Shown here piece by piece: positions 32,864-36,005 of a stretch of DNA of 64,000 nucleotides (position 1 is the stretch's first letter; each line of letters starts with the position of its first letter). The stretch is from the NCBI RefSeq assembly GCF_022179465.1, contig NZ_BPQV01000001.1:248001-312000 (forward strand), given 5' to 3'. The position numbers were made by a program, and so were the translations under genes. The notes beneath the pieces are model-generated. The model did not search any database, was not told the origin of the DNA, and saw nothing but the letters and a program-made list of their open reading frames with translations. The stretch is from Methylobacterium organophilum (GTDB lineage Bacteria; Pseudomonadota; Alphaproteobacteria; Rhizobiales; Beijerinckiaceae).

Positions 32864-34279
32864 ATGCTCTTCACCCGCCTCTCGGACGATCTCTTCCGCC
32901 CCCTGGCCTCCCCCAGCCGCGCCTTCAACGCGGCTCTGTTGCTGCACCTGAACGCCAAGGTCTTCGCGGACACCGCCGAGCCGGTGCGCAAGAGCGAGCT
33001 TCTAGCCGCGATCGGGGATTTCTCCGCGGCCTTCACGCAGCCCGAGATCGCCGACGACGAGACCACACCCATCGACCCGGTGGAGCGGCGCTCCGCCGTC
33101 TACCGGCGCCTGCTCGATGCCGGCTGGCTGGTGGAGCGGCGGGAGCGCTACGTGCCGGTGGTCGATTTCGATCCCGAGGCGCGCATCCTGATCGAGGAAT
33201 TGGCCCGGCTCGACCGGGGCGAGACCCGCTCCTATGGCGGCGCCGTACTGGAGGTGCTGGGCAGCCTGGAGAGCGCCACGGCCAACCCGGCCGAGCGCTC
33301 CGAAGCCCTGGTGAATGCGGCCAAGGCCTCGCGCAGCTTCCTCAGCCACCTGCGCAGCCTCGCCGGCTCCATGCGCAAGATCGAGGAGCGCATCCTGCGC
33401 GAGGAGGACCAGCGCGCGGCCTTCCGGCTGTATTTCGAGGAATTCGTGGCGCGCCACCTCGTCAGCGACTACCGGACGCTGCACACGCGCTTCAATCCGT
33501 TCCGCTTCCGCTCCGGCATCGTGCGCGAGGCCGGCCGGGCCTTGCGCGATCCCCTCACCATCCGTGCCCTCGCCGAGGCCGGCCTGCGGGAGGGCCGGGC
33601 ACCGAACCTGCCGGCGGCGGAGAAGGCCGTGCGGGCGGATCTCGCCGAGATCCTGTCGATCTTCGAGGGGCTCGACCGGCATCTCGACGCGGTGGCCGAG
33701 ATCGTGGCCCGGCTGGAGCGCCGGATCGCGGCGGCGCTCCGCTACATGGACCATCGGGACTCCGACCGGATCGAGCGCACGGCCGCGGCCCTGCGGGCGG
33801 TGGCCGCCGCCGCCGAGCTCTCCGACATGCCGGTGCCGCAGGTGGCGATGCTGCGCTTCCCCATCGGCGAGCCGCATCTGCGCAAGCCCCGCGCGCAACG
33901 ATCCGAGATCTTCGTCGAGGCGCTGCCCGAGATCACCCTGGATCCTGCGATCGAGGCCTTCATCGAGGCCAAAGACGCCTTCCGCCAACGCACCCAGATC
34001 AGCCCCGAGCGCATCACCGCCTTTCTCGATGCGCGCCTGTCGGAGACGGACACGCTGCGCGGCTCGACGTTGCCCATCGCGGATGTCGACGACTTCGTCG
34101 TGTTCCAGCGCCTGCGGGAGATCGATGTGCTGTTCGGCGGCGCCCTCGGCGAGCGCTACCGCGTGCTGCGGCAGCCGGGCCGCCTCGCGAATGGCTGGCT
34201 CGATTGTCCGGATTTCACGATCGAGCGCTACCAGCCGGGGGCCTCGCCGAAACCGTCAGGCGCCGGGCGGCGGCCATAG
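32864..34279 (+). CDS. JetA-family protein of the Wadjet (SMC-type) defence complex
   Basis: 471 aa from ATG 32864. The start FTRLSDDLFRPLASPSRAFNAALLLHLNAKVF, the winged-helix-like AVYRRLLDAGWLVERRERYVPVVDF and RTRSYGGAVLEVLGSLESA fit the DUF5716/JetA family (kleisin-like MksF analogue), which bridges the SMC heads of Wadjet. A long central helical region (residues about 170-320) follows. In Wadjet, JetA acts with JetB, JetC (SMC ATPase) and JetD (TOPRIM nuclease) to cleave circular plasmids. Here JetC and JetD are absent. The assignment is from family memory, not a search. Confidence 0.72.
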   Translation: MLFTRLSDDLFRPLASPSRAFNAALLLHLNAKVFADTAEPVRKSELLAAIGDFSAAFTQPEIADDETTPIDPVERRSAVYRRLLDAGWLVERRERYVPVVDFDPEARILIEELARLDRGETRSYGGAVLEVLGSLESATANPAERSEALVNAAKASRSFLSHLRSLAGSMRKIEERILREEDQRAAFRLYFEEFVARHLVSDYRTLHTRFNPFRFRSGIVREAGRALRDPLTIRALAEAGLREGRAPNLPAAEKAVRADLAEILSIFEGLDRHLDAVAEIVARLERRIAAALRYMDHRDSDRIERTAAALRAVAAAAELSDMPVPQVAMLRFPIGEPHLRKPRAQRSEIFVEALPEITLDPAIEAFIEAKDAFRQRTQISPERITAFLDARLSETDTLRGSTLPIADVDDFVVFQRLREIDVLFGGALGERYRVLRQPGRLANGWLDCPDFTIERYQPGASPKPSGAGRRP

Positions 34280-34518
34280 GGATCGACGCGGAGCAGCCTC
34301 TCGCGGCGGCCATAGGCATGGCCGCCGCGAGAGGCCTCAGACACGTTGCGCGGGCCGGCGAGGCCCTGCGTGCCGCCCGGAGCAGTGGCTGCCAGTTGGC
34401 CGCCGGGCGGTGTGAAGCTGCCGCCGCGGGCGGAGGCTCCGTCGGGAGAAAGCGTCAGGCCGGCGGCGAGGCTTGCGCCCGCGCCCGCCAGCAGCCAACG
34501 GAAGGTGTTCCGGGTCAT
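34228..34518 (-). CDS. Small exported protein between jetA and jetB, antisense
   Basis: 96 aa from ATG 34518. It has a plausible signal peptide (TRNTFRWLLAGAGASLAAGLTLSPDGASA), then a Gly/Pro/Arg-rich mature part. It overlaps the 3' end of the jetA-like gene by 52 bp on the opposite strand. I recognise no family. If real it breaks the expected jetA-jetB operon; if not, the 362 bp between the two genes is non-coding. Confidence 0.45.
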   Translation of the reverse strand: MTRNTFRWLLAGAGASLAAGLTLSPDGASARGGSFTPPGGQLAATAPGGTQGLAGPRNVSEASRGGHAYGRRERLLRVDPYGRRPAPDGFGEAPGW

Positions 34519-34641
34519 GGACAGGCTCCTGAGGAAATCGTCCCTTGCAATCCCCGGGAAACGACGGCCGGAGCCATCGGGTCCGCCAAGAACCCTGCGT
34601 CGGTGCGGCACGGGCCGCGGAACTGAGGAGACGGGAGGACC

Positions 34642-35277
34642 ATGCTCGAAGCGTTTCGCGCCATCGTCGACGGCGAGGAGCCGCCCCCGCCCGGCGCGAA
34701 ACCGCCGAGCGAGGAGGAGCTGACGCGGGCGCTTCAGGTGCTGCTGAAGAACCAGTGCGTCTACGCGCAGACGACGGGGATCGGTCGCTCCTACGAGATC
34801 GCCCGGCACTATGCGCCCTTCTTCAAGGACTACTTCGCCTGCCTCGGGCACGGCTTCGAGGTGTCCCACCGCGACCAGATGGTCTTCCTGCGGGTCCCCC
34901 AGGAGGGCGTGCGCCACGATGCCCAATCCGAGCGCCTGCGCAAGGACGAGACACTGGTGCTGCTCGCCTTGCGCCTTGCCTATGAGGAGGGCCTGCGCGA
35001 CCACCGCGTCACCACCGAGGGCGTCGTCGAATGCACCACCGACGACATCGCCGAGGCGATCCGCACCGCCACCCGCAGCGACCCACCGGACGAGATCCGG
35101 CTCAACGACATCCTGCGCCTGTTCGCCCGCAAGGGCGCCGTGCGGCTGGGCGAGCGCGACCGGACCGAGCGCATCACCCCGCTGATGGTGCTGCCCGGGA
35201 TCAGCGTGCTTTCCCCCGACGCCTGGATGGAGCAGGTCCGCGCCTGGGCGAATGCACAGGGCGAGCCGGAGGCCTGA
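34642..35277 (+). CDS. DUF4194 protein, JetB-like subunit of Wadjet
   Basis: 211 aa; ATG follows GGGAGGACC. Features of DUF4194 (JetB, MksE analogue) are LTRALQVLLKNQCVYAQT, YEIARHYAPFFKDYFACLGHGFEVSHR, and LRKDETLVLLALRLAYEEGL, then NDILRLFARKGAVRLGERD. In SMC complexes of this type JetB dimers bind JetA. No SMC-like JetC or TOPRIM JetD follows: the next gene, ccdA, is convergent 8 bp away. The 362-bp gap and opposite-strand gene separate it from jetA. Its role without the motor is unknown. Confidence 0.75.
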   Translation: MLEAFRAIVDGEEPPPPGAKPPSEEELTRALQVLLKNQCVYAQTTGIGRSYEIARHYAPFFKDYFACLGHGFEVSHRDQMVFLRVPQEGVRHDAQSERLRKDETLVLLALRLAYEEGLRDHRVTTEGVVECTTDDIAEAIRTATRSDPPDEIRLNDILRLFARKGAVRLGERDRTERITPLMVLPGISVLSPDAWMEQVRAWANAQGEPEA

Positions 35278-35285
35278 GCCACCCC

Positions 35286-36005
35286 TCAGTACCGGGTCGT
35301 AAGCGCCGTCAACCAAGCCGGAGAGGCCTCGACCAGGGCCGTCTCCAGCCTCTTGTCGAGCCCGCTGACGATGGCGAGGCCGGTGACGACGAGGATCAGT
35401 CCGAGCGCCAGCCTGAGCCCTCGCCCGGCCCGCATCATCCGGTCGCGGGCGCGCACGAGCAGGCCCCGGGCGAGGGTGCCGAACACGAGGAGCGGCAGGG
35501 CCGCGCCGAGGCCGAAGAGCAGCATCGTCGTCGCGACGCTGGCAAGATCCTTTCCCTGCGCGGCCAGCAACGAAGCGGCGCCGAGCGTCGGGCCGACGCA
35601 GGGGCTCCAGACCGCCCCGAGGAGCAGCCCGACGCCGAATTGCCCGCCGAGCCCGCGTCCCGGGAGATGGCCGAAACGCATCTCCGCCCAGTTCGAGACC
35701 GGCCCCCCAGCACTCGCAAGCCGCGTCTGCACCGCGGGACTGACGAGCACCAGCCCGATCGCGATCAGCAGGATCGCGGCAGCGCTCCGGAAGACGCCCG
35801 TATCGAGGCCGATGGCAAAGCCGATCGTGGCGACGAACAGGCCGATCACGGTGAAGGACAGGGCAAGCCCCGCCGCCAGCGCCACCGGCCCGAGCCGATG
35901 CTCGGAGGCAGCCGCCCCCAGCACCAGGGGGAGCAAGGGCAGCACGCAGGGCGAGAGCACCGACAGGATGCCGGCCAGGAAGGCCAAGCCGAAAGACGCG
36001 ATCAT
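35286..36005 (-). CDS. CcdA-type cytochrome c biogenesis / thiol-disulphide transmembrane protein
   Basis: 239 aa from ATG 36005, about six membrane helices. The two redox cysteines sit in SPCVLPLLP (helix 1) and SPCVGPTLGA (helix 4), as in CcdA/DsbD-beta, which carry electrons from cytoplasmic thioredoxin to periplasmic partners for cytochrome c maturation. An Arg-rich cytoplasmic loop lies near residue 190. No cytochrome gene is adjacent. It is convergent with the jetB-like gene. Confidence 0.88.
   Translation of the reverse strand: MIASFGLAFLAGILSVLSPCVLPLLPLVLGAAASEHRLGPVALAAGLALSFTVIGLFVATIGFAIGLDTGVFRSAAAILLIAIGLVLVSPAVQTRLASAGGPVSNWAEMRFGHLPGRGLGGQFGVGLLLGAVWSPCVGPTLGAASLLAAQGKDLASVATTMLLFGLGAALPLLVFGTLARGLLVRARDRMMRAGRGLRLALGLILVVTGLAIVSGLDKRLETALVEASPAWLTALTTRY

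Follow-up and report, generated by a model that had tools for sequence, protein, structure and literature searches.

The 64-kb stretch of Methylobacterium organophilum DNA analysed here (the window; C1:248001-312000, in an assembly that totals 5.06 Mb over 113 contigs) carries two genes of the Wadjet family, jetA and jetB, on one strand and 362 bp apart. A preliminary description, made from the letters alone, had assigned them to the JetA and DUF4194 (JetB) families, and profile searches against Pfam and PADLOC place both there (Table 1). It had also called the pair orphans without a motor, which does not hold: a dedicated, full-length jetC of type I, encoding a structural maintenance of chromosomes (SMC) ATPase, lies 58 kb upstream of jetA on the same contig and the same strand. 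JetA and JetB are two of the three subunits of a type-I Wadjet-family SMC complex, and this distant JetC is the third. What is missing, in this genome and across the genus, is the nuclease JetD.

Table 1 Features of the locus (window positions; C1, position on the contig; aa, amino acids; ORF, open reading frame)
Feature	Position	Strand	Evidence
jetA, predicted kleisin subunit, 471 aa	32864-34279	+	Pfam JetA PF18982, E 4.9e-73; PADLOC JetA1 PDLC00466, E 2e-221
jetB, predicted DUF4194 / KITE-type subunit, 211 aa	34642-35277	+	Pfam PF13835, E 2e-18; PADLOC JetB1 PDLC00475, E 8.7e-117
jetC, SMC ATPase, 1151 aa	C1:219381-222836	+	PADLOC JetC1, E 0, 1798 bits; Pfam SbcC_Walker_B and AAA_29
Antisense ORF, 96 aa, in the jetA-jetB gap, overlapping the end of jetA	34228-34518	-	ORF only
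ccdA-like gene, convergent to jetB	35286-36005		DsbD_TM, E 6.5e-13
tRNA-His, beyond the ccdA-like gene			
HAD hydrolase gene, divergent, upstream of jetA			

As had been stated earlier, the window itself holds no JetC- or JetD-like frame. The SbcC/MukB-type Walker-B model (PF13558) has a single match above its cut-off in the whole genome, outside the window at C1:222345, which is jetC; because canonical Smc escapes this model, the search says nothing about Smc. One JetA was found by a genome-wide profile search and JetD_C had no match, so that a second jetAB in a full operon with jetC and jetD, a possibility raised in the preliminary description, was not found. The ATPase motifs of JetC (Walker A GPTGAGKST, signature RGSGGEAQAP, Walker B LLDEAFSKLD, and LLIAAPED) are invariant in all 56 proteins compared, and the solved JetC chains nearest to it by sequence are 8as8 and 8dk1, with matches of partial length only. 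Its flanking genes resemble selD and moeA by their sequences, and no JetD adjoins it.

The absence of JetD extends well beyond the locus. The JetD_C model (PF09983) matches none of the 112 genomes of the genus that we searched, with Corynebacterium glutamicum positive as control, and in the M. organophilum genome there is no match even at an E value of 1. Four JetD proteins used as queries (E 0.01) returned nothing in the window, in the 36 kb before it or in the loci of 74 named relatives, a separate collection. In a sample of the family, JetD_C occurs in 2 of 298 genomes. An order-wide sample of 397 genomes contains JetC in 15, of which eight belong to the genus and seven do not; JetD was found in nine genomes, including all seven JetC-bearing genomes from outside the genus and none of the eight from within it. 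In each of those seven, the JetD match lies 0.8-1.0 kb beyond where the JetC match ends, so the model is able to recognise a JetD that partners a related JetC. With no JetD found in the genus, the complex is unable to cleave plasmids by the established mechanism.

JetA, JetB and JetC each occur in 92 of the 112 genomes (G numbers below refer to this set), and the coincidence is complete: an identical 92 carry all three and an identical 20 have none. Linkage is looser than retention. Among the 74 named relatives, JetB shares the JetA locus in 71, and a whole or partial jetC follows on the same strand within 10 kb downstream of jetA in 59, this being the distance examined; some of the loci without jetC are cut off by the end of a contig. 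In most of its closest relatives jetC comes shortly after jetB, from which the window genome differs. The genes are also far apart in G042, a single contig with jetA at 2.46 Mb and, about 2.5 Mb away, jetB-jetC at 4.96 Mb. jetA and jetC lie on separate contigs in G007, G018, G022, G025, G045, G077, G096 and some others, draft genomes in which the physical distance is not necessarily large. That all three genes are kept though unlinked argues for a complex that works in trans. JetC is divided between two contigs in G062, G074, G079 and G100 and is shortened in G103, and the JetB of G111 is partial at a contig end.

The three genes look vertically inherited. Over the 53 loci with all three intact, the protein distance matrices of JetA, JetB and JetC correlate at r 0.961-0.966, and the largest r among 500 permutations per pair was 0.165. 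In a tree of 56 JetC proteins, nine rows of the Methylorubrum group (our own grouping, in which three rows are named Methylobacterium sp.) form one clade with a Shimodaira–Hasegawa-like approximate likelihood ratio of 100. This congruence is that of the three proteins with one another, not with an independent species tree. The median ratios of non-synonymous to synonymous substitution (dN/dS) are 0.34 for JetA, 0.27 for JetB and 0.30 for JetC (69, 70 and 56 rows, own genome included), which we read only as well below 1, since GC-rich third positions have probably raised them. From the codon analysis we excluded six JetA or JetB rows with flagged stops; the stops lie in the final residues of the span, past JetB residue 208 or JetA residue 460, and resemble natural ends. 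Full-length, intact frames are present in the great majority of the jetA, jetB and jetC loci. The earlier idea that the pair is under selection is borne out.

Detected ScpA, the kleisin of the canonical Smc–ScpAB condensin, shows almost the reverse distribution. Its profile (PF02616) matches 18 of the 112 genomes: 17 belong to the 20 without JetABC, and the remaining one, G023, to the 92 with it. The scores are modest (34-49 bits). In 15 of 16 ScpA regions compared (all except those of G024 and G110) the gene order is argS-SPOR-nagZ-scpA-scpB-tatABC. The sixteenth, G023, has a divergent scpA-scpB pair (33-36% identity; C4:136002) without the argS-SPOR-nagZ or tatABC neighbours, and the profile picks up even this protein. 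On the profile search, scpAB appears to have been lost from the JetABC-bearing genomes. Separately from this pattern, we recorded ScpA-like matches in 24 Roseomonas plasmid records, and, in a Methylobacterium sp., tatABC without adjoining scpAB on a repABC plasmid of 55.8 kb (NZ_CP099613.1 53697-55365). A small block at window positions 18544-22256 matches C1 3684-3688 kb of G106, about 60 kb from the argS-scpAB-tat cluster of that genome; beyond this block, the compared stretch of the window's contig gave no further match to the cluster's neighbourhood.

The site of smc itself is empty in one lineage. An annotated Sinorhizobium record has the order mutY-DUF721-dsbA-SMC-ppdK, and a 1.57-Mb plasmid record of Methylobacterium aquaticum MA-22A has methyltransferase-mutY-DUF721-dsbA-smc-atpI-atpB (gene names by similarity); the latter strain serves as a reference for the order of the site only, whatever its own JetABC content. 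In the JetABC-bearing G049 the order is methyltransferase-mutY-DUF721-dsbA-atpI-atpB, with 206 bp and no smc between dsbA and atpI. The same junction is seen in Methylobacterium bullatum (mbul2), where about 204 bp separate dsbA from atpI and the 2.83-Mb record carries JetC. G049 ppdK, at 2.23 Mb, has no smc adjoining it. The full-length M. aquaticum Smc (E 1e-5) finds no match in 1.87 Mb (40%) of G049, and across all loci compared its only other matches are to the gene from Sinorhizobium and to a divergent Smc of 1146 amino acids on the Methylorubrum extorquens AM1 megaplasmid (NC_012811.1, about position 1221864). This Smc, the G023 ScpAB and the Roseomonas plasmid ScpA look like sporadic accessory Smc–ScpAB sets. 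Two record labels deserve comment: NZ_LR743510.1 (M. bullatum ‘plasmid 1’, 2.83 Mb) holds the usually chromosomal atp operon and mutY, and CP090106.1 (Sinorhizobium meliloti ‘pSymB’, 3.7 Mb) holds the usually chromosomal smc and scpA, so that both are perhaps chromosomes or chromosome fragments.

The nearest relative found outside the genus is on the Rhizobium leguminosarum plasmid pRlX5 (NZ_CP140867.1), with identities of 43% for JetA, 48% for JetB and 39% for JetC. It is sister to the Methylobacterium clade with supports of 98/98 in the JetA tree and 100/99 in the JetC tree, although the trees that include plasmid copies have long branches and their deeper joins are unsure. Like the Methylobacterium sets, it lacks JetD within the fetched 5.5-kb flanks; its three genes lie together on a plasmid, unlike those of the window genome. 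No JetD was found in the flanks of a Salipiger plasmid JetC copy, and JetD is present beside the JetC copies on Erythrobacter, Microvirga and Azospirillum plasmids. On the JetC tree, the absence of JetD requires at least two changes. The literal IFDR motif for contact with JetD is absent from Methylobacterium JetB, and likewise from the JetD-bearing relatives that were read. pRlX5 also has, at position 1254065, a 67% match to the N terminus of Smc.

The preliminary description had the two genes split by 362 bp with a small antisense gene between them; the gap is real, whereas the 96-amino-acid antisense ORF is unsupported as a gene because it has no Pfam match and no tblastn match (1e-8) in the 74 relatives' loci. 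By eye, its start resembles a signal peptide. With no relatives in those loci, the ORF was rejected as a conserved part of the system, outside which it probably lies. The convergent ccdA-like gene does end the locus as had been said. Among solved structures, neither JetA nor JetB has a meaningful counterpart by sequence; the JetA profile met haemagglutinins weakly (E 0.019 or worse), which we put down to chance similarity of coiled coils.

We consider it probable that JetABC, without its nuclease, forms loops as a chromosome condensin and has supplanted Smc–ScpAB in most of the genus, the pattern of JetABC against ScpA together with the empty smc site making a chromosomal role the best reading. 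In this scheme JetC dimers would hydrolyse ATP, JetA would bridge them and JetB would regulate them. Homology to solved JetABC and, according to a review, to MukBEF leads us to expect that dimers of JetC, linked through JetA and accompanied by JetB, would form a loop-extruding machine. Such a JetABC would compact the chromosome and help its segregation, the complex having, without JetD, no known effector. The more exacting claim, that in the 92 of 112 species sampled a nuclease-free plasmid-defence SMC complex became the sole chromosomal condensin and displaced Smc–ScpAB, we favour with somewhat less assurance. It would require that smc and scpAB were lost across the whole JetABC clade, and the loss of smc appears so far from a single lineage.

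Several observations weigh against a chromosomal takeover. G049 and M. bullatum are close (their dsbA genes are 96.7% identical), so the loss of smc is seen in one lineage only, and the reading of the site covers these two and not the window's own genome. Neither JetABC nor ScpA was detected in G004, G032 and G050, and these 3 of the 20 JetABC-lacking genomes suggest that the ScpA profile may miss some; the ScpA pattern may, moreover, stem from one or a few phylogenetic events. No JetABC-bearing genome yielded the nagZ-tatA junction, where scpAB would be expected, in a search that covered 40% of G049 and, guided by G106, sparse stretches of G042. In those stretches surE, serS, argS, SPOR, nagZ, scpA, scpB, tatABC, a tyrA-like gene, DUF815, yajC, secD and secF went unmet, and cobU, the only landmark of the scpAB region encountered, stood in a different context. 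Divergent SMC and ScpAB genes do exist in the genus, on the AM1 megaplasmid and in G023. Some jet genes are damaged: the G066 JetC has a TGA somewhere within the matched span, the G104 JetC match starts at residue 30 and its JetB is in two pieces, and the G047 JetA is in two frames. Finally, the N-terminal tail of JetB, FR[AS]I.DG[DE], is conserved in 70 of 70 proteins, and this is the region that section 7 of PMC10586767 reports to contact JetD. Such strict conservation suggests that another partner may use the tail, which keeps a plasmid-directed role alive.

That role is the main rival: JetABC would still recognise plasmids, and would recruit an unrelated nuclease encoded elsewhere or silence or sequester them without cutting. 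All three proteins match models from a defence library (JetA1, JetB1 and JetC1), which speaks for it, as do the conserved JetB tail and the plasmid-borne R. leguminosarum relative with no JetD in its flanks. Against it, ORF clustering over the 74 loci found no generally conserved fourth gene beside jetABC, the commonest family after the three occurring in only 22. Presence in 92 of 112 genomes with congruent trees is also unlike the patchy spread across the order, where JetC lies in seven genomes outside the genus among 397, and an anti-plasmid function leaves the ScpA pattern and the missing smc unexplained. We regard it as unlikely, with a chance that is still worth keeping in view. A second reading, in which JetABC is an accessory condensin beside an Smc–ScpAB too divergent or displaced to be detected, can draw on the modest ScpA scores, on the 60% of G049 that lies outside our reading, and on Pseudomonas aeruginosa and C. 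glutamicum, in which SMC–ScpAB and MksBEF coexist according to PMC7022226. It is nonetheless quite improbable, given that the profile recovers even the divergent G023 ScpA, that the smc site of G049 is empty and that the M. aquaticum Smc finds nothing in the 1.87 Mb read of that genome.

The two explanations offered in the preliminary description fare worse. It had proposed a decayed plasmid-defence island, in which jetA and jetB would be remnants losing function, and a jetC that has moved off, a missing jetD and the damage in G047 and G104 are what decay would produce; yet frames that are intact and full length at the great majority of the loci, ATPase motifs invariant in 56 of 56, dN/dS medians of 0.27-0.34, signs of vertical inheritance and the retention of all three genes even when apart make this highly improbable. 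It had otherwise suggested that the two subunits work with a distant SMC, perhaps a chromosomal one. The first half of this is right, the distant SMC being a dedicated JetC. For canonical Smc as the partner in place of JetC it can be said that kleisin and KITE-type subunits require an SMC; the idea is barely credible, with JetC present in 92 of 92 genomes that have JetA and JetB, and with G049 and M. bullatum lacking smc at the site where M. aquaticum has it.

Compared with known systems, the Methylobacterium set takes its JetA, JetB and JetC from the same families as Wadjet type I (JetABCD, also MksBEFG or EptABCD). It departs from that system in lacking JetD, which is part of it, and in gene order, the type-I operon being compact and jetC here standing 58 kb from jetAB and apart in other genomes too; it is also widespread in its genus with congruent inheritance. 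In C. glutamicum, MksBEFG is described as plasmid-directed (PMC10123090, PMC7083940). The resemblance to the MksBEF of P. aeruginosa is one of composition, a kleisin, a KITE-type subunit and an SMC protein without a nuclease. A chromosome role is reported for that complex, as is proposed for JetABC here, and P. aeruginosa has SMC–ScpAB as well (PMC7022226), whereas both smc and scpAB seem to have disappeared here. The architecture is of the same kind as that of enterobacterial MukBEF, although the present JetC has no significant match to MukB (PF04310, E 0.12, 12.5 bits, below the cut-off of 23). According to PMC10586767, MukBEF apparently replaced Smc–ScpAB in the enterobacterial ancestor, and section 7 of that article speculates that both MukBEF and MksBEF descend from Wadjet. 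A literature search that left most subscription papers outside it returned no report of a nuclease-free JetABC or of the loss of Smc in Methylobacterium.

These observations bear on how closely related SMC machines can organise the chromosome in some cells yet kill plasmids in others. The genus includes laboratory species and has kept JetABC with no JetD found; with Smc–ScpAB apparently gone, it would make the idea of descent from Wadjet testable. If the takeover is real, defence libraries label a probable housekeeping complex as Wadjet proteins, and Methylobacterium would offer an independent and comparatively recent repeat of the presumed origin of MukBEF, for which sister species that carry ScpAB, and a relative on a plasmid that lacks JetD at its locus, are still available for comparison.

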